Source of the DNA: Coriobacteriaceae bacterium EMTCatB1
GTDB lineage: Bacteria > Actinomycetota > Coriobacteriia > Anaerosomatales > Anaerosomataceae
NCBI GenBank assembly: GCA_001950395.1
Contig: BDLO01000001.1
Location: forward strand, 1,029,979 to 1,093,978
Direction of reading: 5' to 3'
Length of the DNA stretch: 64,000 nucleotides
This document shows positions 4,248 to 50,009 of the stretch, in pieces. A model generated the notes under the pieces. It worked only from the letters and a program-made list of their open reading frames with translations, was not told the DNA's origin and did not search any database. The translations under genes were made by a program, and so were the position numbers. How positions within the stretch are numbered: the first letter of the stretch is position 1; each line of letters begins with the position of its first letter.

Positions 4248-4907
4248 TCAGTCGTTCGGTCGGCCAGCGCCGATCGGCACCTGGCACTTGCACGCGAGCG
4301 ACTTGATGTCGCACGGCACGCGCACCTGGTGGATCTGCATCCCTTCCGGCTTCCGCACGTGGATGACCGGCGTGATGAGCAGCACGCCCGTGATCCCGGC
4401 GTTGGCGAGCAGGTCCAAGGTGACCTGGACCCACCCCGGCGAGCATGCCACCAATGCGACGGTGACGCCCAGGTTCGTATCCAGCTTCGCAAGATCTGTG
4501 AGGTGCTGCACGGTCAAGTCGCCTATCTTCGTGCCGGCATCTTCGGGGAGCTCCGAGAACAGAGCGACGGGCTTCACACCGTAGCGCTCGGACGGGAAAA
4601 CGACCTGCAGCGCTTCGAGCATCTTCGCGGTTCCGACGAGCGCAATCGGGTACTCCTCGGACAGACCCAGGTACCGCGTGAACTCACGATAAAGGTCCCC
4701 GGGCTTGTAGCCGGCTCCCGGACGTCCTATCTCGCCCACGAACGAGATGTCCCGACGAACCGTCTCCTCCTTGATACCGAGTTCGCGGGCGAGCTCTGAC
4801 GACGTGATGCGCTCCGGCGCGCCCACTCGCAGAAGCTCGCCCAGGTAGCAGTGATAGAGCGAGAGGCGGTACAGGGTGGCATCGGGTGCATTGCGGCCGT
4901 CCGGCAT
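4248..4907 (-). CDS. Rex-family regulator with degenerate NAD(H) pocket
   Basis: A 219-residue protein with the two-domain Rex layout. It has an N-terminal winged helix (ITSSELARELGIKEETVRRDISFVGEIG, residues 34-61) and a Rossmann-like C-terminal domain. Two hallmarks of NAD(H) binding are absent: where Rex has GxGxxG this protein has GTAKML (92-97), and the acidic residue at the end of the second strand is replaced (VALFSEL, 115-120). The C-terminus instead carries Cys199, Cys206 and Cys208 (VPCD and ACKCQ). The start is ATG 4907 with AGGAGG about 10 bases upstream. A canonical Rex lies at 15615-16262 for comparison. It probably binds DNA, but NADH/NAD sensing is doubtful. Confidence 0.75.
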   Translation of the reverse strand: MPDGRNAPDATLYRLSLYHCYLGELLRVGAPERITSSELARELGIKEETVRRDISFVGEIGRPGAGYKPGDLYREFTRYLGLSEEYPIALVGTAKMLEALQVVFPSERYGVKPVALFSELPEDAGTKIGDLTVQHLTDLAKLDTNLGVTVALVACSPGWVQVTLDLLANAGITGVLLITPVIHVRKPEGMQIHQVRVPCDIKSLACKCQVPIGAGRPND

Positions 4908-5076
4908 AAGACGGAGCCCTCCTCGCGTGAACGTGAGACCGTTATCGAGCCTTAGACTACCACAAGCAATCGGCAACTCGGTAACGATTCTGCTCCCAGA
5001 GCGATTCGCTGAAGTGCTGGGAAACGCAAAGTCACGGTTCTCGAACGCAGTCGCTCTAAGTCGCCGATAACGGACT

Positions 5077-5904
5077 TCAGTATCCGATGAGGTACGCGCC
5101 GTGGATCGACTTGTAGACCAACGCCACGCCGACGAGAGCGAACAGCACGATCGGCAACGCCGCGATGGCTGCCCAGGCGAAACGCCGACCGCGCCAGCCA
5201 AGCGTCAGCCGTCCGTGGAGCACGAGAGCGTACGCCAACCATGAGATGAGCGACCACGTCTCGATCGGATCCCACCCCCAGTACCTGCCCCACGCCTCGT
5301 TCGCCCAGATAGCGCCTGCGGCGATCATGATGCCGAGGAACAGGAATCCGGCCGCCACGAACTTGAACGCCAGGTCGTCGAGCGTCTCAGGCGCCAGTTT
5401 CCCGAGGAGAGGGTCGCCTTTCGCCGTCTTTCCCTCGCGAACCAAGAACAGCACGGCAAGACAGAACGCCGTGATGAACGAGCCGTACGAGAGCTTCGCG
5501 AAGGCGACGTGGATCGCGAGCCACCAGCTCGCCAGTGTGCCGGTTATGGCCAGATCGCTCTTGGGCGCAAGCATCGCGCCCCCAAGGCCGAGGAACGCGA
5601 TGGGCATCACCACGGCAGCCAGCGGCTGCAAGACGCGCTTGCGCGCGACCAGGAGCGTGAACGCCGCGACCCCGACGAATGCGTACGACGAGACGACCTC
5701 GTAGAAGCCCAGGAACGGACCATGACCCACGCGCACCCAGCGATAGCCGATGCCCACGGCGTGCACGGCCAGACCTGCAAGCGCGACGACAGTCGACGCG
5801 CGTTCAAGGGCAGGCTTGCGGAACACGAAGCCGAGGATCGCGCACACGGCCGAGACCGCGTACAGAGTCACCGCGATCCACATGACGATAATCTCAGTCG
5901 TCAC
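5077..5904 (-). CDS. ccsA: cytochrome c biogenesis protein CcsA/ResC (System II)
   Basis: A 275-residue polytopic membrane protein with about eight hydrophobic segments. The heme-handling WWD motif GAIWANEAWGRYWGWDPIE lies near residues 203-221, and conserved His residues flank it (for example IHVAFAKLSYG). With ResB it forms the System II heme lyase that exports heme and ligates it to CXXCH apocytochromes outside the membrane. The GTG start at 5904 overlaps the resB stop by 11 bases and has AGGAGG upstream. The pair lies downstream of, and on the same strand as, two multiheme cytochromes, its likely substrates. Confidence 0.92.
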   Translation of the reverse strand: MTTEIIVMWIAVTLYAVSAVCAILGFVFRKPALERASTVVALAGLAVHAVGIGYRWVRVGHGPFLGFYEVVSSYAFVGVAAFTLLVARKRVLQPLAAVVMPIAFLGLGGAMLAPKSDLAITGTLASWWLAIHVAFAKLSYGSFITAFCLAVLFLVREGKTAKGDPLLGKLAPETLDDLAFKFVAAGFLFLGIMIAAGAIWANEAWGRYWGWDPIETWSLISWLAYALVLHGRLTLGWRGRRFAWAAIAALPIVLFALVGVALVYKSIHGAYLIGY

Positions 5905-7276
5905 CTTCGGACCTCCTCTTGACTGTCGTGGGCGCGATGCCCGAAAAGCGCTCGACGCATCCCTGCACCCGCCGGGCGAATGAGGGGTCCCGCCGCACGT
6001 GGCGGGCCCGCACGTAGACGACGGCGGCTCCCGGCCGCACCTCTAAGAGCGCGGCCGCTTCGCGATACGGCGCAAAAAGCGCGATGGCGAGCGCGATGGC
6101 AGCGAGCGCGAAGATGAGGTACATCGGATAGACGCTCCAATCGTCGGCCACGGAGAGCCGTGCGTAGTATCGTACGCTGCCGACGCCTACCTCGAAACCT
6201 GGCAGCGGTTCGAATCTCTCACCAGGCGCTACGACGCCGCTCGAGCGGCCGCTCGGCCCGGACGCCGTCCACTCGACGCGAGGCTCTCTCGGCATCGCCG
6301 TCACGCACCTGCCTCGCGACGTCTCCAACGGCACGGACAGCTCCATCTTCGTCGTCCCGTCGGGGCCGGCGACCTCCAGCACGCTCGCTGAGCGCGCGAC
6401 GCACGCATCCTCGTCGAAGTCGAGAAGGACGTCAGTCGTCGCGCCGTCAGGAGCGGTGAGCGTCACGGCTAACCCGACGGCATTGGAGTGAACGACCAGC
6501 GACTTGTACCGCAGCGGGTGGTTCGGGAAGACGTATCCGGACGCCACGGGCTGCGGTCCGTCGTAGAGCTCCACGTACGGCGTCGGCCCCCTGTCGATGC
6601 CGTCCACGACGTGGGTGAGCTCGAGCGAGGGAACCGCGACGGTCAGCATCGTGAAGCGCTTGTGCAACGGCCCTTCGCTCACCACGCCGTACGACTCGCG
6701 CGTGTCCAACCGCGCAGAGCCCACAGGCACGCCCATCAGGCCCTCGGCCCGGGTGAGCTGGCCAGCTCCGATGACGGCGATGAGCAGCACGAGCAGCCAG
6801 TGGAACACCGGACTGCCCCACACGCCGAAGCGCGCAGATGTCGCGAACACCGCCTCGTCTGAAGCGGAGCGCACCACGAGGCCCGCCTCGCGAAACGCTT
6901 CTCTCACCGATCGCGCGGCCTCAGATGCGTCGCCGAGAGCGACCGTGAAGTCGCTGTTGCTCGCTGAAGGCAGGCTGCGTGGACCGCCCGCGCGGGCGCG
7001 TCGCCACAGCCGCAGCGCGCCTCTCGTGCGCTCAAGCGCACACGCCGCCGTCGAGCACATAAGAAGCACAGCGAGCGCAAGGAAGATCGGCGCGCTGAAA
7101 GCGTGGTCGAGACCGATCGCCGCAGCAAGCCCGCTCGCGGGCGACGACCGGGCAGCGGCGCTGCCGCGCTGAGGCACCACGGTTGCGAGAGCCGACCAAA
7201 CCGCCGTCGCGGCGAGGAGCGCCGCGGCAAGCCGCCTGGATCGAAAGAAGTCGTACACCCTGGAGAGGACGGGCAT
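5894..7276 (-). CDS. resB: cytochrome c biogenesis protein ResB/Ccs1 (System II)
   Basis: A 460-residue protein. It has three N-terminal membrane segments (around residues 15-32, 60-80 and 155-175), a long extracytoplasmic domain (about 180-370) and a last membrane segment near 385-405. This is the ResB/Ccs1 topology. The N-terminus RVYDFFRSRRLAAALL is typical. Partner of CcsA in heme delivery and apocytochrome handling. Expression is coupled to ccsA by overlap. The gene starts 9 bases after the lipoprotein gene ends, so the three form an operon. Confidence 0.88.
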   Translation of the reverse strand: MPVLSRVYDFFRSRRLAAALLAATAVWSALATVVPQRGSAAARSSPASGLAAAIGLDHAFSAPIFLALAVLLMCSTAACALERTRGALRLWRRARAGGPRSLPSASNSDFTVALGDASEAARSVREAFREAGLVVRSASDEAVFATSARFGVWGSPVFHWLLVLLIAVIGAGQLTRAEGLMGVPVGSARLDTRESYGVVSEGPLHKRFTMLTVAVPSLELTHVVDGIDRGPTPYVELYDGPQPVASGYVFPNHPLRYKSLVVHSNAVGLAVTLTAPDGATTDVLLDFDEDACVARSASVLEVAGPDGTTKMELSVPLETSRGRCVTAMPREPRVEWTASGPSGRSSGVVAPGERFEPLPGFEVGVGSVRYYARLSVADDWSVYPMYLIFALAAIALAIALFAPYREAAALLEVRPGAAVVYVRARHVRRDPSFARRVQGCVERFSGIAPTTVKRRSEGDD

Positions 7277-7285
7277 GGCAGCGCC

Positions 7286-7861
7286 TCAGGGCAGTGGCGT
7301 CGGGGTCGCGTCGCCGGACTGCGACAGCACCTTGGTGTGCGCGACGAGCCACCCGCCGCTCCTCCGAGAGAGCAGGTACTCGACCTCGTAGGTGGTGTCG
7401 GCCCAGTCGGTGGACGGCTGGCGGGTGCTGAGACTCCAGTAGCGCCAGCGCCACGCCTCGCTCGTGCGCACCGTAGCCGAGGTCGTCTCTGCTGACGGCG
7501 AGTCCGCCGAGAGCACCGAGAACGCCGTCAGGTCCATCTCCAGGGCTTGGCCTTGCTGCCGGTTGAGCTCGATGTACGCGTCCTCGCGGACCTCTTGCTC
7601 TTCGGTGACGTACGGCGCCACGATGCTCGTCTCGAGGCTGTAGTACGCCTCGGCAGCAGCCGAGAGATACGCAGTGACCGCCTGCTTCGGGGTGCTCGAC
7701 GGCAGGCGCTCGACCGGCGCATCGCCGATCGGCAGTACACCGGAAGTCGGCTCTCGTGCGGGCACGTTCTTGGCGCGCGCGCATCCAGCCGCGACCGCGA
7801 GCGCAGCGCAGCACACGACGCACACGACCAGTCGTATCACACGAGATCTCACGAGCGCCAT
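7286..7861 (-). CDS. secreted lipoprotein, function unknown
   Basis: A 191-residue protein with a hydrophobic signal and the lipobox LAVAAGC ending at Cys27, so it should be lipid-anchored on the outer face of the membrane. The mature part starts with a Pro/Ser linker and then a compact alpha+beta domain ending in VEYLLSRRSGGWLVAHTKVL. That pattern resembles NTF2-like or ARC6-IMS-like folds, but I do not recognise the family. It is first in an apparent operon with resB-ccsA. A role as a chaperone or receptor for exported apocytochrome or heme is inference from position only. Confidence 0.75.
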   Translation of the reverse strand: MALVRSRVIRLVVCVVCCAALAVAAGCARAKNVPAREPTSGVLPIGDAPVERLPSSTPKQAVTAYLSAAAEAYYSLETSIVAPYVTEEQEVREDAYIELNRQQGQALEMDLTAFSVLSADSPSAETTSATVRTSEAWRWRYWSLSTRQPSTDWADTTYEVEYLLSRRSGGWLVAHTKVLSQSGDATPTPLP

Positions 7862-7883
7862 TCTACGACACCTCGCATGAGCA

Positions 7884-7913
7884 GCGGGTCGCGAGCAGTG
7901 ACCCGCGACCCGC
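7884..7913 (-). terminator. GC-rich stem-loop between the 37-heme gene and the lipoprotein gene
   Basis: GCGGGTCGCG (7884-7893) and its exact complement CGCGACCCGC (7904-7913) form a 10-bp stem with a 10-base loop, 28 bases past the stop of the 37-heme cytochrome. There is no T-run, so this may be a Rho-assisted pause or an mRNA 3'-end stabiliser rather than a classical intrinsic terminator. Confidence 0.4.
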
Positions 7914-7940
7914 GCTCAGACACCCATGCGGATGTGATCG

Positions 7941-10900
7941 CTACTGGAACACCCTCAGCTCGGCGATGCCGTAGCCATTGTTGCGACCGGTGCCCGTTTT
8001 GCGGCACTCCACCTTGACGTACCGGGCATCGCGCGCCGAGAACGTGACCGTCGTCGTCCCTTTGACGGCGCTGGTGGTCGAGTACACCTGCGTCCAGTTG
8101 CGGTTGTCGGTGGACACGTACACGCGGAACTCCTTGGCCCAGTAGTCACCGTACCAGGCGACCTCCACGCGGCTGACTCTGTACCGGGAGGCGAGACCCA
8201 CCTTCAGCCACTGGGTGTCTGATGCCCCGCCGTCGCGCTTCGACCACCAGTACGTGGACTCGCTGCCGTCTCCTGCCTTTGCGGGAGCGTAGCTCGAGCT
8301 CTCGTACCGCGAGGCGGTGAAGGTCTTCCCGAGCGCGAGGTTGCTGCCGCCGCCCGTCGAGGTCGGGGTCAATGCGGCGTTCACTGTGACCGTCGAGCCG
8401 TTCACGACGGTGACCGATGAGGACCACGACTGGTACCCGGTCGCCGTGACCGTCATCGTGTACGTCCCGCCGGCGATGCCTGTGATGCTGTACTTCCCAT
8501 CAGAACCGGTCGTGGCCGACTTACCAGCGACGCTCACCATCGCGCCAGCAACTGGAGCGCCAGTCGAGGAGTCGGTGACCGTGCCGGCGACGTCGCCTGT
8601 CGTCGGGGCCGTCGGGTCGAGCACCAGCGGCCACACCGGCGTGACGGAGCTCTTGTGCTCGCCGCACGAAGTGGAGCAGTCGCCTTCGCTCCACTGCGTG
8701 GGCGTGTAGCTCTTCAGCACGAGCCCCGTAAGGCCAGTGCTCGCGTAGGGCGACCCGTCGGTGGTGTACGCCAGCAGACGCGGACGCTTCCACCCGTGCG
8801 GCACCTGAGCGTGGCACAGGATGCACTTACCCCTGTTGGATCCCTGGTGATCGCCCTTCTCGTGCACCTTGTTGCTCCAGGTGTTGCTCGTGCCGTTGAG
8901 GTCGTGGCACTTGGCGCAGATCACCGTCGTGGAGCTCATGCCGTTGGACGAGTTGGTGAGGTACGCGCTCTTCCAGCTCGTCGGGTACGCCGGGTCGATG
9001 TTCACCTTCATCGCGGCCCCGTGAGGACCGGACGCGCCGGTGTAGGTGTGGCAGGAGTCGCAGGACATGACGGAGTCGGTGGACCAGCCGCTCTTCAGGA
9101 ACGAGGAGGCGGCGGGAAGCGTCCAGGTGTACGTCTTGCCGTTCACGGAGAACGACGACTGCATGCCTGGCAGGTCGCTCGAGACGCGGTGGCCAGACGA
9201 CATCTTCGGCGTGAACTCCCACGCCTGACGCGCGTTGTGCGGTGAGTCCGGATGGCAGGTCAGGCAGCGCCGGTCGCCTGCAGCGATCGCCGCCTGCACC
9301 GTGGCGTTCGTCGAGCCGTGGCAGGTCTGGCAGGTGTATCCGAGCGCCGCGTGCTCATCGTCCAGGTACATGAAGTGGCAGCCCTTGCAGCCGCTCGGGT
9401 TCGCGCCCGAGGCGTCGTGCGCCTCGTGGTGGTTCGGCCCGACGCCAGCGTGGCAGACAGTGCAGTCGGTGGTCGTCGCTGGCTGATCGGGACCCTTGTG
9501 GCACGCCGAGCAGCCGCCTTGCGGCAGCCCGGCGTGGATGGCGTCCACCTTCGTGATGTCGTGGCAGCCAGTGCCAGCGCACGCCGTGTTCGTCGACTGG
9601 TGCTTCGTCTGCCGCTCAGCGTGCTTCACGGGGTGGCACGCGCCGCACGTCTTGTCCCACGGAGCCGTGAAGGCGTCGACCTTGAGCTCGTGGCACTGCA
9701 CGCACGTCACGCCGACCGTGGGCTTGAAGTGCTCGGCCTTCATGTCTTTGTAGTGGCACTGGCCGCAGCCGGACTCGGCAGAGGCGTCGTGGGCAGCGGC
9801 CGGATAGTGGTTCGGATCCACCGGGCTCAAAGCGCCGTGGCAGTTGGCGCACTTCGTGGACGCAGGAAGCGTCACCTGCGCGTTGTGGCAGTAGTCGCAC
9901 GACGCTTCCTGGCTTGCGCCGTGGATGTCGCGCACGTCCGCGGTCTCGTGGCAGTCCACGCACTCCTGGCTGTCCGGAGCGGTGTGGATGGCGGCGATGT
10001 CGCCGTGCACCGTATGGCAGCTCGAGCAGTCCGCGCTCGCCTGGCTCCAATCGATGCGAGCGGGGTCGGCGTTCTGGTGGCACAGAGCGCACGTCGTCGC
10101 GTACTGCGGATAGCGAGACAGGTACGGCTCATGCGCTTCGGGCAGGGTGTTCGCGGCATGGCAGCGTGAGCCGACGCAGCTCGACGGCATCGCGCTGAAG
10201 GTGTGCGCCTCTGGCAAGCCGCGATGGTAGTCCGTGCCCTCCGCCGCATGGCAGCTCGCGCATGCAGCCGTCTTCGCCGTGATGTCCGGAACCCTCGTCG
10301 GGTTGGCGTGGCACACTGTGCATCCGCCGAGCGCGGCGTTCTTATGCACCACGGTCACGTCGAGCGGCTGGCCCGCAGCACCGTGGCACGAGGAGCAGCC
10401 GTCCACGCTCGCTTCGTCATCGGCCGTGTGCTTGACAGCGGCGCCCGCGTGGTAGCTCGCGTGGCACGCCGTGCACCGCGTGTCGTTCGCCACCTCGATC
10501 GCGAACTGCACCTCTTGGCCGCGTTCGCCCTCGTAGTTGCTGTGGCACACGTCGCAGCCGTTCAGCTGCTCCCCGCTTGGGGTCGTCGCCGTCACGCCTT
10601 CGTGAGCATCGACGAGCGATGCCGCGTGGCAACCGCTGCAACCCTGGTCGCCTGACGGCGTGAAGGCGCTGCGGTGAGCAGTCGATGTGGGGGCATGCAC
10701 GGGATGGCAGGCCTCGCAGTTCGTCTTGCCAGTGGCGATCGCGTCCAGGACTTCGAGCTTCGAGGACTTGTGGCACGAGTCGCAGGAGAGCGGTGTGCCG
10801 TCAGATGCGTACCTCGGAAGACGGGTGACGACGCCGTTCGACGTGCCCATGTGCTCGTCGATCAGGTTCGACGTGTGGCACATGATGCAGTCGCTCGTAG

Positions 10901-11900
10901 GCGCGGTCGACGCGGAGCCGGTGTAGTAGCCGTAGTGCGGACCGGTGGCGTCGACGAGCGGCGGCTCGGCCCAGTGGATAGCGCGGTGCGCATCGCCAGC
11001 CGTAGCGTCGTGGCACGCCCCGCACGCCGTGTCGCCTGCCGAGATGGCGGCTGCGTAGCGCGGGTCAGAGGTGTTGCCGTGGCACAGCGTGCAGCCCTCG
11101 CCGGGGCGCCGCGCTTCGTGCTCAGCGACGAGGTCGCGCGAGTCGTGGCAGCCGGACGCCAGGCAGCCGTCCATCGACCAGGTGCTCAGGTGCGTGTCGG
11201 CCGCGTAGTGCTGGTCGAGCGGCTTGTGGCAGTTCGTGCACGCCGGCAGATCGGCGCCCGCAGAAAGCGCGGCCTTCGGATGGCACGCAGCTGCGTAGCA
11301 CGAGACGGGTCGCGTCCCGTAGTTGAACGTGCTCTCGATCGTAACCGCTCCGGCGGCGCCCGTGCAGACTTGGCTTGGCACCGGCGCGTACGACGCGACC
11401 GCAGATTGCGCGATCACGTGATCGCCATGAGAGGAGGGAGCGTCGTGGCACGCGTCGCACGCTGCGGCGAGGTGGCAGTTCTTGCACCACTGGCTGGAGA
11501 AGTCGCCACCAGTCACCCAGTCGGCGTCGCCGTGGATGCGATGCAGCTCCTCGGGTGAGGTCATGAGAGAGGCCGATGATGCGAACCGACCAGCCACAGG
11601 GTCGTAATACTGTCCGAGCCACGCGGTGTTGGCATCCGTGCGACCGTGGCACTGGCTGCAAAGCGGCATGTACACCGACTTCTCGTGAATCCCCGAATCA
11701 GGACTCATCAAATGGCACGCTTTGCACTTCTCGAGAGAGACCGGGGCGCCGAAGTCGACCGTCTTCGACGAGCTGCCTGCGGTCACCGAATGACATCCGA
11801 GACACACCTGGTTCTCAGCCGGGGCTGCGGCGGAGGCAGCGCCCATGAAGACGAACAGCACGAGAACCGCAGCCGTCGCGAGCAGGATCGCTCTTCTCAT
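7941..11900 (-). CDS. secreted 37-heme c-type cytochrome with carboxypeptidase-regulatory-like and discoidin-type domains
   Basis: A 1319-residue secreted protein. A signal peptide covers about residues 1-24 (MRRAILLATAAVLVLF...). Counting by hand gives 33 CXXCH motifs and four spaced CX4CH motifs (CYAAACH, CLASGCH, CVGSRCH, CAGTGCH), 37 potential hemes in total, filling residues 33 to about 1065. A beta-sandwich linker of carboxypeptidase-regulatory type follows at about 1102-1186 (GTVTDSSTGAPVAGA). An F5/8 type C (discoidin) domain, usually carbohydrate-binding, ends the protein at about 1187-1319. The start at 11900 is chosen because the signal peptide begins there. Likely role: long-range extracellular electron conduction attached to cell-surface glycan. 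Confidence 0.9.
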   Translation of the reverse strand: MRRAILLATAAVLVLFVFMGAASAAAPAENQVCLGCHSVTAGSSSKTVDFGAPVSLEKCKACHLMSPDSGIHEKSVYMPLCSQCHGRTDANTAWLGQYYDPVAGRFASSASLMTSPEELHRIHGDADWVTGGDFSSQWCKNCHLAAACDACHDAPSSHGDHVIAQSAVASYAPVPSQVCTGAAGAVTIESTFNYGTRPVSCYAAACHPKAALSAGADLPACTNCHKPLDQHYAADTHLSTWSMDGCLASGCHDSRDLVAEHEARRPGEGCTLCHGNTSDPRYAAAISAGDTACGACHDATAGDAHRAIHWAEPPLVDATGPHYGYYTGSASTAPTSDCIMCHTSNLIDEHMGTSNGVVTRLPRYASDGTPLSCDSCHKSSKLEVLDAIATGKTNCEACHPVHAPTSTAHRSAFTPSGDQGCSGCHAASLVDAHEGVTATTPSGEQLNGCDVCHSNYEGERGQEVQFAIEVANDTRCTACHASYHAGAAVKHTADDEASVDGCSSCHGAAGQPLDVTVVHKNAALGGCTVCHANPTRVPDITAKTAACASCHAAEGTDYHRGLPEAHTFSAMPSSCVGSRCHAANTLPEAHEPYLSRYPQYATTCALCHQNADPARIDWSQASADCSSCHTVHGDIAAIHTAPDSQECVDCHETADVRDIHGASQEASCDYCHNAQVTLPASTKCANCHGALSPVDPNHYPAAAHDASAESGCGQCHYKDMKAEHFKPTVGVTCVQCHELKVDAFTAPWDKTCGACHPVKHAERQTKHQSTNTACAGTGCHDITKVDAIHAGLPQGGCSACHKGPDQPATTTDCTVCHAGVGPNHHEAHDASGANPSGCKGCHFMYLDDEHAALGYTCQTCHGSTNATVQAAIAAGDRRCLTCHPDSPHNARQAWEFTPKMSSGHRVSSDLPGMQSSFSVNGKTYTWTLPAASSFLKSGWSTDSVMSCDSCHTYTGASGPHGAAMKVNIDPAYPTSWKSAYLTNSSNGMSSTTVICAKCHDLNGTSNTWSNKVHEKGDHQGSNRGKCILCHAQVPHGWKRPRLLAYTTDGSPYASTGLTGLVLKSYTPTQWSEGDCSTSCGEHKSSVTPVWPLVLDPTAPTTGDVAGTVTDSSTGAPVAGAMVSVAGKSATTGSDGKYSITGIAGGTYTMTVTATGYQSWSSSVTVVNGSTVTVNAALTPTSTGGGSNLALGKTFTASRYESSSYAPAKAGDGSESTYWWSKRDGGASDTQWLKVGLASRYRVSRVEVAWYGDYWAKEFRVYVSTDNRNWTQVYSTTSAVKGTTTVTFSARDARYVKVECRKTGTGRNNGYGIAELRVFQ

Positions 11901-12202
11901 GACTCCCCTCTTCCCACGTGACGAGCAAGGTCCGATGTCGCCAGCGGGGACAAGGGGCGTTTCGTGATTCGGCGGTCTCGTGCCCCGGCACTGTCCTGCT
12001 GACGCGCTCTCGGCCGGTTGCGCCACTGGCTCGTCGCCGCCCAAGGCGCCCACGTCACGGGCAGCGAGTCATCGCCTCCGAACCGCAGACCGGCAGTGCG
12101 CCCCTCACGTCCGGACTCGCGGTGTGTGAATTGTGAGCGAAGTCACCGGATTAGTCAATAGTGACTTTGGTCACATAGCGGCTGTGAAGGCGATGGTGGG
12201 CG
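11901..12202. other. 302-base intergenic region upstream of the 37-heme gene
   Basis: No gene is visible here. The right third holds two GTGA-N6-TCAC inverted repeats, annotated separately. A weak -10-like CACAAT on the minus strand lies at 12130-12135. That would place a transcription start near 12123 and leave a leader of more than 200 bases before the ATG at 11900. The left two thirds are GC-rich with no evident structure. Confidence 0.5.
12133..12174. promoter_or_regulatory. two tandem CRP/FNR-type operators (GTGA-N6-TCAC)
   Basis: GTGAGCGAAGTCAC lies at 12133-12146 and GTGACTTTGGTCAC at 12161-12174. Both match the GTGA-N6-TCAC half-site arrangement recognised by CRP-like regulators. Their centres are 28 bases apart. 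Relative to a possible start near 12123, the upstream site would sit close to -44 (activating) and the other would overlap the -10 region (repressing). Which regulator binds is unknown. Confidence 0.5.
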
Positions 12203-13669
12203 TCAGAAGTCGATGCCGACGCGCTTGCCAGGCACGACCTGGTGACAGATCAGACAGTTCCCGTCCCTCGGAAAGTCGTAGTACCTGAGCATGTAGTTCT
12301 GCTGCGTCCCGTGGGGGTTGTGGCAGGTCGACGTGCACGTGAGCGGCTTTCGCGCGTTCACGTCGTAGTGCTTAGGTCTCACGGGATGGTTGTTGCGATA
12401 CTCCGTAGCCGAGGACTCGTCGAAAGCGGATGCGGGGTGGCACTGCAAGCACACCTCGGGCTGGGGCTTGATGAGCAGCGGCGCCCAGTTCGAGCCGTGC
12501 GGGGTGTGGCACCGCACACAGAGCGTGTCGAAGTGCGCGCTCCGGTCATAGGTCGCCTGTATCGCCGCCCGGTGGCACTGGTAGCACATCGCGTTGTTCT
12601 TGGCTGCCAAGAGCGCCGGATAGTCGGCGGCATGCGGGTTGTGGCAGTCCGCGCAATTCAGCTTCACTGTGCCGACCGGATGATGGCTCGGCTTCAAGAA
12701 GTCGTACTTGATGCCTGGATGGCACCTGTAACAGAGACCTGGCTGGTACTCGATGAGAAGCGGAGTGTAGTCAGACCCGTGCGGCTCGTGGCAGCCGGTG
12801 CAGTTGTCGTATAGGAACGGGTGGTGCTGCACCGGCTTGAGCGACAGCGGCGCCACCGTCGGGTGGCAGGTGAAACAGAGGTCACGCTGATTGTCCACGA
12901 GGATCCCGCGGTAGTTCGACGCGTGCGGGTCGTGGCAGTTCAGGCACCAGCGGCCCCCGGCGGGCGGATGGACCTGCGCCCTGTTCAGCTCACGGCCGAT
13001 CGGATGACAGGTCACGCACAAGTCGCGCTCGTCTTGGGTGAGCAGCGCGCGGAACTTCGACGCATGCGGCTCGTGGCATTCCGTGCAACGACCCTCTTGG
13101 AACGGGACATGGGGATAGTCGCCCGACAGCAACGGCCCCATATCGCCGTGGCACATCCAGCAAAGCTCGCTTTTGGGAAGCGTCGGCTCGGAGTCCTTGC
13201 CTTTGACCTTCTTCTCGGTCTTGGAGACGACCTCCCCGCCCTTCTCCTCGGCGACCTTGCCGTCGCCGGTCGAGAAGACGTCGAGCACCACCTTAAGCGG
13301 CAGCCACTCGACGAGCGTCTTGACGCGCTGCCAGACCTGCTTCGCCCCCGCGATGACAGAGGTGACTTCGACGTGGCCGTGGGGCGTGTGGCACGTCGTG
13401 CAGTCCTTTCGCATGAAAGGATCGTGCACGGTCGGATACGAGAACTGCGGGATCAGCTCCGAGTGGCACTGCAGGCACTCGAGGTTGCGCGTGATGCGTT
13501 TGATCTGCTCGGGAGTCTTCGTCGTGTAGGTTTGGACGACGGTGGTGATGCCGCACGCGAGCAGCAGCACGAGAAGGGCGGCCCCGAGGGCGAGCCGGCC
13601 GCGCCGCTCATTGGCTCGATCGTGCTGACCGTCGGACTTCGGCCCCGCTTTGACCTCGGCGTCGCTCAC
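12203..13669 (-). CDS. membrane-anchored 15-heme c-type cytochrome (doubled-CXXCH repeats)
   Basis: A 488-residue protein. It has a short charged cytoplasmic N-terminus, one membrane segment (about residues 25-47) and an exported domain. I count 14 CXXCH motifs plus one CX3CH (CTSTCH near residue 455). They alternate in the doubled-CXXCH pattern, with CxxCHxPHxS followed by LCxxCH about 30 residues later. A Lys/Glu-rich spacer near 120-165 separates the first two hemes from the rest. The GTG start at 13669 is preceded by GAGGAGGGG. Likely passes electrons from the quinone pool or a membrane donor towards the extracellular 37-heme protein encoded next. An NrfH/NapC-like quinol oxidase role is possible but not shown. 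Confidence 0.9.
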   Translation of the reverse strand: MSDAEVKAGPKSDGQHDRANERRGRLALGAALLVLLLACGITTVVQTYTTKTPEQIKRITRNLECLQCHSELIPQFSYPTVHDPFMRKDCTTCHTPHGHVEVTSVIAGAKQVWQRVKTLVEWLPLKVVLDVFSTGDGKVAEEKGGEVVSKTEKKVKGKDSEPTLPKSELCWMCHGDMGPLLSGDYPHVPFQEGRCTECHEPHASKFRALLTQDERDLCVTCHPIGRELNRAQVHPPAGGRWCLNCHDPHASNYRGILVDNQRDLCFTCHPTVAPLSLKPVQHHPFLYDNCTGCHEPHGSDYTPLLIEYQPGLCYRCHPGIKYDFLKPSHHPVGTVKLNCADCHNPHAADYPALLAAKNNAMCYQCHRAAIQATYDRSAHFDTLCVRCHTPHGSNWAPLLIKPQPEVCLQCHPASAFDESSATEYRNNHPVRPKHYDVNARKPLTCTSTCHNPHGTQQNYMLRYYDFPRDGNCLICHQVVPGKRVGIDF

Positions 13670-13716
13670 CCACCCCTCCTCAGGCGCACACGCGATCGGT
13701 GAATAGAACCGCTCAT

Positions 13717-13730
13717 GTGAAGTCTATCAC
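13717..13730. promoter_or_regulatory. CRP/FNR-type operator upstream of the 15-heme gene
   Basis: GTGAAGTCTATCAC is a GTGA-N6-TCAC inverted repeat centred 54 bases before the GTG of the 15-heme cytochrome. A TTCTAT on the minus strand (13703-13708) could be its -10 element. The same motif occurs twice before the 37-heme gene, which suggests common control. Confidence 0.45.
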
Positions 13731-13768
13731 GCACAGAACCTGTGGGGCAGCCTCGTCCACAAGATTCG

Positions 13769-14869
13769 CTAACGTCCCGTCAGTCGAACGCACTGCACGC
13801 GTCCATTCTCCTTATCGGCGATGACGAGGAAACCCCTGAGGCGCTCGACGTCGTTCGGGAAGTTGAGCTGGCCCGGCTCGGTCCCCCTCTCTCCGTAGCG
13901 CGCGGTGATCGTGTGCTCCTCAGACGAGATCCGCACGAGCTGGAACGCGAACGAGTCGGCCACGAGGACGTCGCCGTCGTCCAGAACCGTCAGCCCACGG
14001 GGAAGCTGAAGCGGGCGCGGCGAGCGGTCGTTCAGTCCCTTCGGCGGCGTGCCGACGCTCCACAGCGGCGTGCCGTCTTGGCTGAATGCGGTCACCCTCG
14101 CGTGGTTTGAGTCCGACACGTACACAGTGCCGTCCGCGCCGACTGTCAGGCCATTGGGATGGTCGAGGTCACCGATCTCGAGCCCCGGCTTTCCCCACTG
14201 GCGGACGAACGTGCCGTCCCGCTTGAAGACGAACACCTGCCACTGGTCCGTGGCAAACACGTAGTCGCCGCTCACGGCGACGTCCGTGACGGCGATGCCT
14301 CCTCCGTCTTGACCGGACGACCCGCGACCGACGGGCTTCGTCGGGTCCGGGAAGCGTCGCAGCGGCTTGCCGTCTGGGTCGTAGACCTCGATCGAGTCGT
14401 TGTAGAAGCTCGCGACGTAGACGTTGCCGTCCTGGTCGACGTCGATGCCGACCGGGTAGTTCAGCCGCCCAGGCTTGTACGAGTACGTGCCGCCTGGGAC
14501 CGGTTTCGCGACACCGAACCCGCCGAACTCGAACAGGAACCTGCCGTTCGAGTCGAAGACGCAGACGCGGTTGTTGCCCGAGTCGGTCACGTACACTCGA
14601 CCGCCCTTGCCCACGGCGACGCCCATCGGGCGATCGAAAAGCGGCTTGTCCCCGACTCCTGGCCCGTACACCTGCCAGACCGGTTTGATGCCTTCCTTGG
14701 GCGGCACGGACCCGAGCGACTCAGGTCGGCCCAAGAAGTAGAAGAGGTACACCAGCAGAGCTACCAAGAGCAGCAGCAACACCACCGCCAGCACGGCGAA
14801 CCACTGCCGCGGGGTGAGCCGGATGCCCTTCTTGAGCGGGGCGAACGGATCGAGACGACGCTTCGTCAC
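13769..14869 (-). CDS. membrane-anchored NHL-repeat beta-propeller protein
   Basis: A 366-residue protein. A short basic N-terminus is followed by one strong membrane segment (about residues 19-41). The rest consists of successive NHL-type blades, with repeated motifs such as GVAVGKGGRVYVTDSGNNRV and GIDVDQDGNVYVAS, probably forming a six-bladed propeller outside the membrane. The GTG start overlaps the TGA of the TPR gene (GTGA). NHL and TPR proteins recur beside multiheme cytochrome genes in metal-reducing bacteria; an assembly or scaffold role is inferred from that. No catalytic residues are evident. Confidence 0.82.
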   Translation of the reverse strand: MTKRRLDPFAPLKKGIRLTPRQWFAVLAVVLLLLLVALLVYLFYFLGRPESLGSVPPKEGIKPVWQVYGPGVGDKPLFDRPMGVAVGKGGRVYVTDSGNNRVCVFDSNGRFLFEFGGFGVAKPVPGGTYSYKPGRLNYPVGIDVDQDGNVYVASFYNDSIEVYDPDGKPLRRFPDPTKPVGRGSSGQDGGGIAVTDVAVSGDYVFATDQWQVFVFKRDGTFVRQWGKPGLEIGDLDHPNGLTVGADGTVYVSDSNHARVTAFSQDGTPLWSVGTPPKGLNDRSPRPLQLPRGLTVLDDGDVLVADSFAFQLVRISSEEHTITARYGERGTEPGQLNFPNDVERLRGFLVIADKENGRVQCVRLTGR

Positions 14870-15618
14870 TGGCTGGCCCCCAGTCTCTTGAGCCCGTCTT
14901 TCGCTTCTGCCATGTCTGGCGCGTACTTCAGCGCCGCGCGGTAGTACGCGATCGCTTCGTCGCGCTTGCCCAATTGCTCGCTCGCGTAGCCGGCGATGTA
15001 CTGCAAGTCGGCGTACTGGGGCTGGCTCTTCAGCACCGGCTCGACCGTGAACAGCGCCGACTTGTAGTGCTTCTGGCTGAGGTACAGCTCGCCGAGCGTC
15101 TTGGCGGCCAGCACGTGGTCCGGGGCGACTTTCAGCACCTCCCACAGCGCGGCCTCCGCGTCCTTTGACTTGCCTTGCGCGAGCAGCACCATCCCGCGGT
15201 TGTACATCGCCGCGAGGTTCTGTGGATCGCGCTTGAGGACTTCTTCGTACTGCGCGAGCGCGTCGTCCCAACGTTGCTGCTGCTGATACGAGTACGCGAG
15301 GTTGAGCCGCGCCTCGAGGTCCTCCGGGTCGCGCTCAAGCGCTGCCTTCCAAGCGTCCTCCGCGACGGTAGCCGGCGTGGCCTGCTTCCCGCGCGTGAGC
15401 ACGCCGCGAAGCACGAAGCCGCCAGCCGCCGTGACTGCGAGCAGCAACAGCAATACGAGCAGCGCAAGCCAGCCAGGAACGAGATCCTCCTCGCGCGGCT
15501 CGCGCTCGGAGCCTTCACGCTCGCTCGCTTCGACGCCCGCCGCCTCCTCACCGACCGCGAGCGAAGCGTCTTGCTTGAGCACGGGCTCAGCGTCCTCCGA
15601 GAGCTTCTTGGGCGTCAT
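14866..15618 (-). CDS. membrane-anchored TPR protein
   Basis: A 250-residue protein. The first 45 residues are acidic and rich in Glu/Ser. One membrane segment follows (about 50-72), then four to five tetratricopeptide repeats (for example AWKAALERDPEDLEARLNLA and AIAYYRAALKYAPDMAEAKD). TPRs mediate protein-protein contacts, so this is a likely partner or assembly factor for the NHL protein and the cytochromes. The ATG at 15618 overlaps the rex stop (ATGA) and the stop overlaps the next gene (GTGA), so all three are translationally chained. Confidence 0.83.
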   Translation of the reverse strand: MTPKKLSEDAEPVLKQDASLAVGEEAAGVEASEREGSEREPREEDLVPGWLALLVLLLLLAVTAAGGFVLRGVLTRGKQATPATVAEDAWKAALERDPEDLEARLNLAYSYQQQQRWDDALAQYEEVLKRDPQNLAAMYNRGMVLLAQGKSKDAEAALWEVLKVAPDHVLAAKTLGELYLSQKHYKSALFTVEPVLKSQPQYADLQYIAGYASEQLGKRDEAIAYYRAALKYAPDMAEAKDGLKRLGASQ

Positions 15619-16262
15619 CGAGCCCCCTCCTGCTGCGCAAGCCGGAACGAGAGGATCTGCAAGTCGGTCGAAAGACACACCTGTCGGACGTTCACGTCGT
15701 CCGGCACGACGAGCCGTGTCGGCGCCAGGTTGAGGATCGCCTTGACGCCGCCTTCGACCACCGCGTCTGCCGCGAGCTGCGCGGCGTGCGGTGGCGTCGC
15801 TAGGATCGCGATCTCGACGCCAAGCTCGCGCAGGACCTTCGGCGCTTCGTCGAGGTGGTGGACCGCCAGGCCGTCGAAGACCTGGCCGACCTTGGCAGGG
15901 TCCACGTCGAACAGCGCGACGACCTCGAACCCGCGCTCCGGAAAGCCAGGGTATCCGTGCAGCGCGGCGCCCAGCTTGCCATACCCGACGATCGCCGCCT
16001 TTCGCCGTTCCTTGACGCCGAGGATCTGCGAGATGTGCTCTACGAGAGCCGCGACCTCGTATCCGATGCCGCGGGTCCCGAGCTCTCCCAGGTACGAGAA
16101 GTCCTTGCGGACCTGCGCAGCGTTCGTGCCGCACAGCGCCGCGAGCCGTTCGGACTTCACGAGCGGGACACCGAGCGCCTGCAGCTCGATGAGGCACCTC
16201 AGATACTGAGGCAGCCGCTCAATCGTGCTCTCCGGGATCCCGGAGCCGTTCTTCTCGCTCAT
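15615..16262 (-). CDS. rex: redox-sensing transcriptional repressor Rex
   Basis: A 215-residue canonical Rex. The N-terminal winged helix includes the DNA-contact segment VRKDFSYLGELGTRGIGY (residues 51-68). The Rossmann domain has the intact GYGKLG (93-98) and Asp119 at the end of the next strand. The C-terminal swap helix is present. Rex represses respiration and fermentation genes at high NAD/NADH ratio and releases DNA when NADH rises. Unusually it is embedded in an operon, overlapping an O-antigen-ligase gene upstream and a TPR gene downstream by ATGA on both sides. It may control the operon it belongs to. Confidence 0.95.
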   Translation of the reverse strand: MSEKNGSGIPESTIERLPQYLRCLIELQALGVPLVKSERLAALCGTNAAQVRKDFSYLGELGTRGIGYEVAALVEHISQILGVKERRKAAIVGYGKLGAALHGYPGFPERGFEVVALFDVDPAKVGQVFDGLAVHHLDEAPKVLRELGVEIAILATPPHAAQLAADAVVEGGVKAILNLAPTRLVVPDDVNVRQVCLSTDLQILSFRLAQQEGAR

Positions 16263-18400
16263 CGTGTCGTCTCCTTCGCCGCCAGGCTCGCTTCGACCGA
16301 CTGGAGCGCCTGCTGGGCGTCCGCCCTGCCGCCAGACAGCTGCACCGCCCTCTCGAACGCCGCTTTCGCGCCCTGCAAGTCACCGAGCAGTCGCCGAGCG
16401 TCGCCGAGCGCCATCCACGCCTCGACGTAGTTCGGGTCCTGATCTGCTGCCTCGGCCGCCTGAGCGGCAGCATCAGCGAACTGTCCGCGCGTCATCAGCG
16501 CGAGCGCAAGCTGCACGCGGATGGCAGGCCCGAACGGCTCGACCTCGACGCCCCTGCGGGCGATCTCGACCGCTTTGTCTGCATACGCGGGATCGAGGTA
16601 GTACGATGCCTGATTGTACAAATTCGCGAGGAACACGTAGTTGTCGTACTCGGTGGGCACGAAGTCGATGACCGACAAGAACTCGCGCTCAGCCTGAGAC
16701 AGATAGTACTCCGCACGCTGTCGAGATTGCGCGTCGCCGACGCCCTGCATGACCTGCGAGATGAACAGATCCTGCCACGCGAGCCCGACCTCCGTGCGGT
16801 ACATGTCGTTGTACGGGTTCAGCTTCACCGCCTTCTCGGCGTACTCCACGCGAGTCATGCCCTGCGAGCCGATGCGAGCCTTCAGGTACATGTTGTCGGC
16901 GCGTACGTACACGACGTTGCCCACGAACAGAGCGGCGCACAGGCCGCAGACGGCCGCGGTCGCCGGCATACCGAGCGAAGGCGCCTCGACCTCACGCACG
17001 GCGGCGTGCGGCGACAGGAGCAATCCCAGGCTCAACCACAACAGCACCGTCGAGCCCGTGATCGAGAGCCCGAAGGTGAGGTGCACGATGTACCCGAGCG
17101 CCGCTGCCCAGAACCCCGCGAGCACGATCCGCTCGGTGCCGCTTCCCTTCACGAACACCGTGCGGAACGACCGCGCGAGCGTCCACGCGAAGAAGCCGTA
17201 GAGCATGAGCAGCCCTGGGACGCCTATCGCAGACGCGAGCTGGAGCGGGTAGTTGTGCACGTTGTCCGCCACCGACAGGTAGCCGGCAGTGCCCGTGTAG
17301 GCCCGCGGCTTGAAGCGCGGGAACAGCAGCCGGAACGTGTCGGCGCCCCAGCCCAGGATCGGCCGCTCCTTGATGGCGGCCAGCGCGGCCTGCCAGATCT
17401 GGAACCGCGTGAGCGCGCTGCCCTGCCCGAACTCGAAGATGGACTTGATGCGCGCGACGACGTTCGTCACGCCGTCCGTCGACGACAAGCTGCGGACCGT
17501 CTCGACGACCGCGAGCACCGCGCTCACGCCCACCGCTCCCCAATCCACGCTCGTCCATGGGGTGCGGGCGACGAGCGCCGCGGCAGCGATGGCGACGATC
17601 GCGACCGTCCCTCCGATCCACGCGCCGCGCACGTACGACACCAGCAAGCAGAACCCGATGACGGCGAACGCCGCCCACCAGCCGGCCCTCGCCTCGCGCC
17701 GCTTCTCCGAAAGCGCGAGCGAGAGGGCGACCGCGAGCGGGAAGATGAGGTAGCCTCCGAGCAAGTCGGGGTTCCCGAAGGTCGAGAACGCGCGACGCTG
17801 CTCGAACGGAAGCGAGCCCCAGGGAGCCGGGTCGATGCCGAAACGCTGCGCCACGCCGTAGCCCGCGACCAGCACGCCGCCGACGACGAGCGAACGCGCG
17901 AGCGAGCGGATGCGCGACGGCCGGTCAGCGAGCTGCAACGCCAGGAAGAACCAGCCGCCGTAGGTGAGGAAGGACAGCAGCCCTTCGAACCTGCGGTACT
18001 TGCCGAAGATGGCGGTCGGCGGGTGGATCGAGGTGACCGAGGTGAGGAGAACCCAGCCGAGGAACGCGAGCACCAGCCACTCGACTCTCGTGAACCGCAC
18101 CTTGCCGCCGCGCAGCAGCAATCCGGAAAGCCACGCTGCGGCAGCCACGAGCAGCAGCGCGCGCATGGTGAAAACCTTGACGATGTCGAACTGGTCGTAG
18201 GTGAGCGGCATCGCCCTGATGCCGACGACGCTCGGGTTGGACACTGCAAGCGGCACGAGGATCACCATGAGGTGCATGCACACCCAGGCGATGCGGTCGA
18301 AGACGTCCATCGGCGCCGCCTGCGGCTGCGGAGCGCGGGGCCTCGAGCGCTGAGCAGCAGCCGTGGACGGCTTGACGGTCGATGCTTTCTTCTTCGCCAT
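16259..18400 (-). CDS. O-antigen ligase/polymerase family membrane protein with C-terminal TPR domain
   Basis: A 713-residue protein. A Lys/Ala/Pro-rich cytoplasmic N-terminus (1-30) precedes about 12 membrane segments (about 35-470). The Wzy_C-type periplasmic loop includes RFQIWQAALAAIKERPILGWGADTF and the LSVADNVHNYPLQLASAIG segment with its conserved His. The last 200 residues are TPR repeats. Such proteins polymerise or transfer lipid-linked glycan outside the membrane; some are protein O-glycan ligases. The ATGA overlap with rex ties glycan transfer to the TPR-NHL-cytochrome cassette. Protein glycosylation and polysaccharide polymerisation cannot be told apart from sequence alone. Confidence 0.85.
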   Translation of the reverse strand: MAKKKASTVKPSTAAAQRSRPRAPQPQAAPMDVFDRIAWVCMHLMVILVPLAVSNPSVVGIRAMPLTYDQFDIVKVFTMRALLLVAAAAWLSGLLLRGGKVRFTRVEWLVLAFLGWVLLTSVTSIHPPTAIFGKYRRFEGLLSFLTYGGWFFLALQLADRPSRIRSLARSLVVGGVLVAGYGVAQRFGIDPAPWGSLPFEQRRAFSTFGNPDLLGGYLIFPLAVALSLALSEKRREARAGWWAAFAVIGFCLLVSYVRGAWIGGTVAIVAIAAAALVARTPWTSVDWGAVGVSAVLAVVETVRSLSSTDGVTNVVARIKSIFEFGQGSALTRFQIWQAALAAIKERPILGWGADTFRLLFPRFKPRAYTGTAGYLSVADNVHNYPLQLASAIGVPGLLMLYGFFAWTLARSFRTVFVKGSGTERIVLAGFWAAALGYIVHLTFGLSITGSTVLLWLSLGLLLSPHAAVREVEAPSLGMPATAAVCGLCAALFVGNVVYVRADNMYLKARIGSQGMTRVEYAEKAVKLNPYNDMYRTEVGLAWQDLFISQVMQGVGDAQSRQRAEYYLSQAEREFLSVIDFVPTEYDNYVFLANLYNQASYYLDPAYADKAVEIARRGVEVEPFGPAIRVQLALALMTRGQFADAAAQAAEAADQDPNYVEAWMALGDARRLLGDLQGAKAAFERAVQLSGGRADAQQALQSVEASLAAKETTR

Positions 18401-19774: not shown

Positions 19775-20889
19775 ACGGCCTCCATGGCCTCACGGTACAC
19801 GGCGAGCGTGCGCTCCACCATCCCGTCGCGTGTGAACTCGGCGCGCACCCGCTCGCGCGCCTGCGCGCCGAGGCGCGCCCGCAGGTCCCCGTCTTCGACG
19901 AGCGTGCGAAGCGCGTCCGCAAGCGCGTCGACGTCGCCGGGCGGGACCACGAGCCCGCTCGTGCCGTGCTGGTTCACAAACGGAACGCCAGTCGGCAGGG
20001 CGGTCGAGACGACCGGCGTTCCCGCCGCCATCGCCTCGATCTGCACGAGCCCGAACGCCTCCGAACGCGCCACGCTCGGCAGGCAGAACACGTCGGCGGC
20101 GCGATAGTGCGCGGCGAGCTCACGGCGCGAAAGCGGCGGCAGGACGGTCAGGCGCGCTTCGACGCCGAGCTCGCGGGCCAACGCACGCAGCTCGCCCTCG
20201 AGCGGGCCAGAGCCGACGACGACGAGGTCGGCATCGACGCGCGCCATCGCCCGCACGAGCACGTCCACGCCCTTGTAGTAGATGAGCCGTCCGACGAAGA
20301 GCACGATCGGGCGCTCGTGCTGCGCACGGATCTGCTGCGCAAGCGGCTCGAGCGCGGGGTCGGCGAACTCGTCCGGATCGATGCCGAACGGCACCACCCT
20401 GCACTTGTCTGCGACCGGCGAGAGGAACGCGCTGTGCTCGATCATCTGCGGGTTCGACACGATGATGCGCCCCACGCGCGCCAGCACGCGCCTGAGGAAC
20501 GGGGCGTAGCCGGCGAGCAGCACGCGCTGCCGGACGATGTCGCTGTGGTAGGTGAGCACCGAGGGCAGCTTCGGCGCCGCGCGCAGCCACTCGAGCTCGC
20601 CCCACGGGTAGGGCGAGTGGAGGTGCAGCACGTCCGCGCGGCGCTCCTCCTCGCGAAGCGCGCGCGCCATCCCGAACGCCACCGGAGCGGACGACACGTT
20701 GAACGCGCGCCCGAGGCGCACCACCTCCACCCCGCCACGCGTCTCGGTCACCGTGTCGGGGGCCTCGTTCGCGACGATCGCGCGCACCGCGTGACCGCGC
20801 TCGACGAGCGCTTCTGCCAGGTCGCGCACGTGGTGCTCGATGCCTCCGAGGTGCGGCGGGTAGTGCTTGTTCAGCATCGTGATGCGCAT
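19771..20889 (-). CDS. GT4-family glycosyltransferase
   Basis: A 372-residue cytoplasmic glycosyltransferase of the GT-B fold. The N-terminal acceptor domain starts with the Gly-rich loop NKHYPPHLGGIEHHV. The C-terminal donor domain has FVGRLIYYKGVDVLVRAM and the family E-x7-E motif (SEAFGLVQIEAMAAGTPVV). It adds a sugar from a nucleotide donor to a lipid-linked acceptor. It begins 20 bases after the phosphohexomutase gene and overlaps the sugar-phosphate transferase by 4 bases, so it likely adds an early sugar of the same glycan. Donor and linkage cannot be read from sequence. Confidence 0.9.
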   Translation of the reverse strand: MRITMLNKHYPPHLGGIEHHVRDLAEALVERGHAVRAIVANEAPDTVTETRGGVEVVRLGRAFNVSSAPVAFGMARALREEERRADVLHLHSPYPWGELEWLRAAPKLPSVLTYHSDIVRQRVLLAGYAPFLRRVLARVGRIIVSNPQMIEHSAFLSPVADKCRVVPFGIDPDEFADPALEPLAQQIRAQHERPIVLFVGRLIYYKGVDVLVRAMARVDADLVVVGSGPLEGELRALARELGVEARLTVLPPLSRRELAAHYRAADVFCLPSVARSEAFGLVQIEAMAAGTPVVSTALPTGVPFVNQHGTSGLVVPPGDVDALADALRTLVEDGDLRARLGAQARERVRAEFTRDGMVERTLAVYREAMEAV

Positions 20890-47676: not shown

Positions 47677-47685
47677 GCATCCTCC

Positions 47686-47862: not shown

Positions 47863-47866
47863 CGCG

Positions 47867-48550: not shown

Positions 48551-48569
48551 GCGGGACTCCTTCCTGCGC

Positions 48570-50002: not shown

Positions 50003-50009
50003 CGCGTCC

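Follow-up and report, generated by a model that had tools for sequence, protein, structure and literature searches.

A 37-motif cytochrome with a CBM32-type tail, encoded behind a class II c-di-GMP riboswitch: a candidate electron wire for the Gram-positive cell wall

How electrons pass across the thick wall of a Gram-positive bacterium is an open question. The gene described here lies in 64,000 nucleotides (nt) of DNA from the subsurface actinobacterium Coriobacteriaceae bacterium EMTCatB1 (contig BDLO01000001.1, positions 1,029,979 to 1,093,978; this whole stretch is the window, and its numbering is used throughout). The gene encodes a multiheme cytochrome (MHC) that, with its orthologs, offers a testable candidate: a single polypeptide long enough to span the wall, with a glycan-binding-type end, whose production appears to be tied to cyclic di-GMP (c-di-GMP). 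With moderate confidence, we take it to be a secreted, conductive MHC that is switched by a cyclic dinucleotide and held in the Gram-positive wall or matrix.

The first-pass annotation had placed 33 CXXCH and four CX4CH motifs, over about 1030 residues, at 7941-11900. The coordinates are right, the coding strand is minus, and the exact count agrees: 33 CXXCH, four CX4CH and no CX3CH, all within residues 33-1030, or roughly one heme every 28 residues. (Residue shuffles, n=1000, yield on average 0.27 CXXCH and 0.30 CX4CH, and three of each at most.) The plus strand of this interval is interrupted by stops. The frame opens with ATG at 11900, with AGAGGGGAG before it, and the encoded N-terminus is of signal type; hydropathy above 1.4 over 19 residues is confined to stretches starting at residues 1-12. 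This is, by its many motifs and its export signal, a multiheme c-type cytochrome, and judging from the motifs it should hold 37 hemes, which would bring its calculated mass to about 158 kDa. Only four cysteines (179, 1075, 1079, 1299) lie outside the motifs. From N- to C-terminus the chain consists of a seven-heme part, a triheme array, a triheme cap, a CarboxypepD_reg linker and an F5/8C domain (Table 1). Pfam matches above gathering are Cytochrome_C7, MtrC/MtrF II-IV, Cytochrom_CIII, CarboxypepD_reg (residues 1104-1178) and F5_F8_type_C (1194-1305). A PF22113 segment scores above that family's own cut-off; the OmcA/MtrC family TIGR03507 reaches only 21.3 bits against a curated cut-off of 209.3.

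Hemes 8-34 are assigned, by sequence comparison, to nine tandem triheme units like those of cytochrome c7, because the scores of the chain against itself have a period of three hemes. The comparison uses a heme-register alignment of 18 orthologous frames out of 23 extracted, in which each of hemes 8-37 is found in at least 17 of the 18. Among profiles of six-heme windows (351 pairs; null, columns between motifs permuted 24 times) the top score belongs to hemes 8-13 against 29-34, at 148, where the null gives 42 +/- 9. Of the pairs tested, the eight at offsets 6, 9, 12 and 21 have z of 7.5 to 13.7, and three control pairs with N-terminal hemes (starts at hemes 1 and 2) have z of -1 to 0. Three-heme windows over hemes 8-34, which overlap and whose scores are therefore not independent, average 43.9 at offsets divisible by three (108 pairs) versus 33.6 and 33.1 at the others (100 and 92 pairs). 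The internal multi-heme repeat that had been suspected is present, with a period of three hemes. (Self-BLAST gave no off-diagonal rows even unmasked; it was judged uninformative, and profile comparison was used instead.) The accompanying idea that CX4CH motifs fall at roughly regular places does not survive: they lie at residues 201, 246, 575 and 774, with spacings of 45, 329 and 199. The conserved CX4CH sites each open a triheme unit, at heme 8 (kept in 18/18 orthologs), heme 20 (15/18, with CXXCH in two and no in-register motif in one) and heme 29 (17/18). Heme 6 has a motif in 15 rows: CX4CH is restricted to the four that belong to the window's genus, and the remaining 11 have CXXCH.

The best solved match to the heme-region profile is 3ov0_A (318 residues; E 3.4e-10 and 1.3e-9), which we take to be Geobacter sulfurreducens GSU1996, a dodecaheme protein of four c7 domains. 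The tandem three-heme units are accompanied by a PF14522 match above its cut-off. Orthologs differ in length by inserted or missing heme-bearing segments and so provide natural length variants: outside the genus the motif number is usually 41-43, and G029, G033, G006, G019 and G015 have 57, 49, 52, 51 and 59 (contig ends truncate G006, G019 and G015). Short family members, of about 370-614 residues, retain the N-terminal part together with a single stretch of the array.

Outside the motifs there are 41 histidines: 31 do not vary among 12 orthologs, and 37 are shared by 11 or all 12 of them. By this count, conserved histidines would be enough for bis-histidine ligation of all 37 hemes, and a second axial histidine at each heme would fit electron transfer, not catalysis. 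The triheme cap that follows the array is common to other giant cytochromes of the order. Its model (predicted local distance difference test, pLDDT, 75.9; predicted template modelling score 0.72) has no match in the PDB by two programs, and is not taken as a new fold. A 15-CXXCH paralog elsewhere in the genome (L051:5224-9492; C1:1201224-1205492) has only this cap in common with the long cytochrome; its frame lacks a clear signal peptide, and its start may lie in another frame.

The beta-sandwich linker and F5/8 type C domain of the first-pass annotation are both recovered, by PF13620 and PF00754 above their cut-offs. The last 133 residues match both discoidin modules of the Paenibacillus sp. 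IK-5 chitosanase/glucanase (E 3e-19; profile E 1.5e-30), and the tail model (pLDDT mostly 79-95) agrees with 4zy9, 4zxe and 4zz5 at Z 24.5-25.0, root-mean-square deviation 0.9-1.0 and 36-41% identity over 128-130 residues. On family profile and modelled fold together, the tail is assigned a glycan-binding-type CBM32 fold, closest to chitosan-binding modules. These modules, DD1 and DD2, share the fold but are carried by a glycosidase. The tail is the sole F5/8C match in its own genome. Some F5/8C match is found in 41 of 69 genomes of the order, and 21 of the 23 best (E to 1.7e-16) are on long-cytochrome frames; the remaining two are on one contig-cut frame of G025, where no multiheme frame was seen. 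An alignment of 20 tails (excluding G030, which ends at the cap, and two contig-cut frames) resolves two subtypes by loop residues. Isoelectric points (pI) range from 4.9 to 11.4, with 9.7 in the window. Residue Cys1299 (window 8004-8006) is without a partner in its domain.

The riboswitch and a Crp-type site are the strongest hints, as far as sequence can give them, of when the cytochrome would be made. The RF01786 match at 12003-12087 is full-length (model 1-84 of 84), exceeds gathering, and is the only riboswitch above threshold in the window; the model of the GAG variant, RF03169, reaches 61.1 on this aptamer, so that the sub-class margin is small. The class call is that of Rfam. Leaders of fourteen long members were scanned (the window, L031-L041, L045 and L046): RF01786 exceeds its gathering score in 11 (G000, G001, G002, G003, G005, G006, G007, G026, G030, G038, G042), and the GAG variant is found in one (G018, 42.5 bits, gathering 40). 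The leader structure covaries. Across 14 leader aptamers there are 45 both-sided cells, versus 20.9 in shuffles (0 of 500 reach 45) and 11-16 in slid controls, and 81.6% of cells are paired, versus 52% at most when slid; these counts refer to the alignment as it came, with P1 columns misaligned in two single-row mappings. The 69 genomes of the order contain 37 riboswitch matches above cut-off, in 32 genomes. Twenty-six precede a long or short family member (25 within 175 nt, that of G012 at 958 nt), two are at contig ends before N-termini resembling those of the G019 and G015 genes, which are cut at their 5' ends, and one (G029) is at a contig end with its downstream gene unassigned. The other eight stand before frames in which the part covered shows no heme motif; of five of these frames that were scanned, four have surface-type domains (fibronectin, PKD, RCC1, SdrD_B, DUF11) and one has no family above cut-off. 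The host's own genome encodes twelve GGDEF domains.

Upstream of the leader, the palindrome GTGACCAAAGTCAC abuts a promoter-like sequence at 12158-12130 that is weak by itself (0.7 matches on average in shuffles). The repeat GTGA-N6-TCAC is found in 13 of 15 ortholog upstream regions (500 nt; G029, with too little upstream sequence, is left out) versus 0.08 expected from mononucleotide shuffles. The case for an operator rests on this conservation and not on the count in the window alone, which is not significant (3 versus 0.94 expected; 9 of 100 shuffles reach 3). A conserved palindrome at a promoter suggests Crp/Fnr-type control, the label depending on what we take to be the Crp/Fnr consensus, and the genome encodes two clear HTH_Crp_2 proteins (genome positions 1432293 and 417713). 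This is the only perfect match to TGTGAY-N4-RTCACWWW in the genome; if one mismatch is allowed, three more sites appear, of which one immediately precedes the frame of the 15-heme paralog. A Rex operator was first considered, because rex genes flank the cluster, and was rejected: the inner bases are mostly C/T...G/A and not the A...T that Rex presumably requires. The two Rex-type redox regulators lie on the same strand, at 4248-5201 and 15615-16262.

Downstream of the cytochrome follow a lipoprotein-like gene, which is conserved beside ResB, and the System II heme-attachment genes for ResB and CcsB. The four genes probably form one transcript, because they share a strand and are separated by 79, 9 and -11 nt.

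Table 1. Features of the cytochrome locus, in window coordinates
Feature	Position	Strand	Basis
CcsB/CcsA, System II heme attachment	5077..5904	minus	PF01578 127.7 bits; TIGR03144 174.4, cut-off 187.6
ResB, System II heme attachment	5894..7276	minus	PF05140 83.9 bits
Lipoprotein-like gene, 191 residues	7286..7861	minus	TcaA NTF2-like PF22819 23.1 bits, just under 23.6 cut-off
Multiheme cytochrome coding sequence, 37 motifs, 1319 residues	7941..11900	minus	open reading frame, motif count, Pfam
F5/8 type C (CBM32-type) domain	7944..8342	minus	PF00754 70.0 bits, cut-off 28.2
CarboxypepD_reg-type beta-sandwich linker	8367..8591	minus	PF13620 63.1 bits, E 3.3e-17
C-terminal triheme cap, invariant CX3C (C1075, C1079)	8610..9248	minus	alignment of 32 sequences
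Array of nine c7-like triheme units, hemes 8-34	9252..11165	minus	profile self-comparison, 3ov0_A match
N-terminal seven-heme part (hemes 1-7), outside repeat	11226..11804	minus	control comparisons at null level
Signal peptide, residues 1-24, putative cleavage site	11829..11900	minus	hydrophobic N-terminus
c-di-GMP-II riboswitch aptamer RF01786, 5' leader	12003..12087	minus	65.2 bits, gathering 53.5, E 1.7e-14
Sigma-70-like promoter TTGACT-17-CACAAT	12130..12158	minus	sole promoter-like match in 5000-14000
Second GTGA-N6-TCAC repeat, overlaps promoter	12133..12146	minus	second site seen in this genome only
Inverted repeat GTGAC-N4-GTCAC, Crp/Fnr-type, abuts -35 upstream	12161..12174	minus	conserved in orthologs
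14-CXXCH paired-motif cytochrome, membrane-anchor-like N-terminus	12203..13669	minus	Paired_CXXCH_1 226.5 bits
Wzy_C/TPR gene	16259-18400	same strand	Pfam
WcaJ-type gene	18410-19774	same strand	name from sequence, no family search
GT4-type gene	19771-20889	same strand	name from sequence, no family search

What these elements might do together can be outlined for a host that would be a Gram-positive, probably iron-respiring actinobacterium (Anaerosomatales). Electrons would pass from the quinone pool through membrane-anchored cytochromes (the adjacent 14-heme protein, for example) to the long cytochrome, whose nine c7-like units, flanked by the seven-heme part and the triheme cap, would act as the wire, and from there to extracellular acceptors. 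The CBM32-type tail, on its short beta-sandwich stalk, would anchor the protein in wall glycan or exopolysaccharide. The riboswitch and a Crp/Fnr-type factor would switch the cytochrome, ResB and CcsB on or off, such that the wire would be made only in a suitable state of attachment and respiration. With c-di-GMP as a lifestyle signal, production would probably accompany a change between free-living and attached growth. A more far-reaching proposal is that the wire has a reach evolving by triheme units, is fixed by CBM32 to the cell's own glycan, is made together with its heme-attachment enzymes under the class II c-di-GMP riboswitch, and arose among actinobacteria as an independent parallel to the cyclic-dinucleotide control of extracellular cytochromes in Geobacter; this we advance tentatively, and with some doubt.

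The long chain of hemes could instead serve mainly as a charge store (a capacitor) or terminal reductase, buffering electrons while acceptors are out of reach. Such a role has been raised for large MHCs (PMC7399161, to judge from the part of that report at hand), and it would agree with a motif number that varies freely among orthologs, from 37 to at least 59. A store would be expected to drift more than hemes 8-37 and their distal histidines, which are strictly kept as in a defined chain, and we think this role unlikely. A nanowire that polymerises, or lies along filaments, like OmcS, OmcE and OmcZ is a very improbable alternative: a long linear c7-type array and the pili-like appendages that Parvivirga is described as forming only with ferrihydrite (PMC9686372, in part) can be cited for it, but no filament cytochrome is named among the matches listed (in one search, the best 60 of 149), a chain of this length needs no polymer, and the tail points to matrix binding. 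The tail, for its part, might be an adhesin whose target is not the cell's own glycan but a partner cell, another surface protein or a polymer associated with minerals. Discoidin domains bind phospholipids and proteins as well as carbohydrates (PMC2789033, as far as the part consulted shows), the tail subtypes differ in loop residues and widely in pI, and the only other c-di-GMP-II-type riboswitch found in the genome (a GAG variant, 44.9 bits) precedes a 1406-residue surface protein (L160:4534-8754; C1:1664534-1668754) with SdrD_B, SpaA and DUF11 domains and a terminal LPFTG-like sorting motif. The nearest solved relatives of the tail are, however, polysaccharide-binding CBM32 modules, and an adhesin is somewhat unlikely. 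Linker and tail might, finally, be passive relics on an ordinary wall-associated carrier that is held otherwise. The G030 member without a tail speaks for this, as do the missing linkers of G042 and G029 (the linker is doubled in G015), but Cys1299 and many fold residues are kept in 20/20 aligned tails, and there is little probability in it.

Several observations count against a tail-anchored, riboswitch-controlled wire. That one ortholog lacks the tail has just been mentioned, and F5/8C domains are absent from several genomes with short members; the riboswitch is found before short members too, and so tracks the family and not the tail. The leaders of G032 and G045 have no riboswitch even at a permissive threshold. 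Modelling of Shine-Dalgarno accessibility gave no consistent difference, and the folding did not recover the aptamer. The predicted model of the heme part is of low confidence (pLDDT about 27-64) and was not used. The sugar-binding tail that had been proposed stands as regards its fold (CBM32, Z 25) and only in part as regards the chitosan site: of the residues that presumably contact glucosamine in DD2 (E14, R31, Y36, E61, Y120), the window protein has equivalents of E14 and Y120 but none of R31 or E61, so that chitosan is not implied as ligand. Further cytochrome-maturation genes elsewhere in the genome mean that ResB and CcsB need not be dedicated to the long cytochrome; within the window itself, the region at about 46870-51788 has three matches to PF01578 and a weak one to ResB, which suggests a second kind of maturation, a Ccm (System I) cluster, in addition to the System II genes at 5077-7276.

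The reading of the long cytochrome as a conductive, matrix-held protein can be set against known systems. The dodecaheme c7 polymer 3ov0 is, we presume, a linear triheme c7 array as well, but has 12 hemes versus 37 here and comes from a Gram-negative organism; it is not known to have a CX4CH pattern, a cap, a linker or a sugar-binding tail. Hemes in this 12-heme relative are spaced at about 1 nm each. GEMM-I and c-di-GMP-II riboswitches are different Rfam clan members and have unrelated folds. Extracellular cytochromes under cyclic-dinucleotide riboswitches have precedents in Geobacter OmcST, OmcAHG and PgcA, where the switch is GEMM-Ib, a GEMM-I fold sensing cyclic GMP-AMP (PMC6456294, in its accessible part); here the fold is that of c-di-GMP-II and the host an actinobacterium. 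MHC types A, B and C of anaerobic methanotrophic archaea (ANME) are also giant extracellular cytochromes fused to envelope- or carbohydrate-related domains, with up to 86 motifs and, in MHC-B, an adjoining maturation gene, CcmF2 (PMC9012536). Unlike the present family they are archaeal, with S-layer, peptidase M6-like or pectin-lyase-like domains instead of CBM32, and the available portion of that report mentions no riboswitch (PMC9012536). The large MHCs of Burkholderiales and Anaerolineales have 30-53 motifs, a number changing by insertion and deletion of heme segments, and the corresponding portion of their description mentions neither sugar-binding tail nor riboswitch (PMC7399161). Matrix-associated giant cytochromes and riboswitch-controlled cytochromes are thus each known, and the present family joins both; a long c7 array, CBM32 tail and class II c-di-GMP riboswitch together were not found in searches of one open-licence library.

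The family is narrowly distributed. In a class-wide search 43 of 149 genomes match at E 1e-30 or better, all in the same genome, genus, family or order, and Anaerosomatales (OPB41) is the only group in which orthologs, with 37 to at least 59 motifs, were found. A scan of named genomes gives 31 loci, of which the 11 with the strongest matches come from records labelled Coriobacteriia or Actinobacteria, one of them Anaerosomatales; the rest are 20-40% identical and mostly other large multiheme proteins. A cultured relative, Parvivirga hydrogeniphila, makes switch and protein accessible. This member of the order is a Gram-positive, obligate Fe(III) reducer whose cluster MCL4079323-32 is described as containing MtrA and OmcH homologs, a quinol-oxidising multiheme protein, cytochrome c biogenesis and Rex (PMC9686372, in the part available, which gives no heme number, tail or riboswitch for it). 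It is probably the same gene cluster as that in the window; the main text of that paper uses neither 'discoidin' nor 'carbohydrate-binding'. Further giant cytochromes are two from Actinomycetota (L068:5822-14278, 2819 residues with 43 CXXCH and 12 CX4CH; L069:9956-17908, 2651 residues with 48 and 10), which have no sugar-binding tail by Pfam, and a Comamonadaceae frame of 3038 residues with 78 CXXCH (L076:5873-14986).

Upstream, the long cytochrome is adjoined by the 14-heme cytochrome, as it is in other families too, and then by NHL, TPR, Rex, Wzy_C/TPR and sugar-transferase-type genes. Glycan-transfer genes do lie upstream on the same strand, as had been remarked, but at least 4 kb away, with the cytochrome, NHL, TPR and Rex genes in between. 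The order is kept within the genus (G001, G002; the G003 contig ends inside the Wzy_C gene), and this context lends the glycan reading little weight because, among the other families, only G035 has the Wzy_C-Rex-TPR-NHL run near the cytochrome. In G038 and G030, which belong to other families, the genes run 15-heme paralog, lipoprotein, ResB, CcsB, long cytochrome and 14-heme cytochrome, and in G033 it is lipoprotein, ResB, CcsB, an 8-CXXCH relative, long cytochrome and 14-heme cytochrome; in G007, G032, G018, G005 and G042, none of the remaining genes of the window adjoins the cytochrome within the sequence covered. In both riboswitch-free orthologs, T-box-like leaders (L036:8536-8751 and L038:12904-13119; 59 and 53 bits, below the gathering value of 93) sit just 3' of the cytochrome gene.

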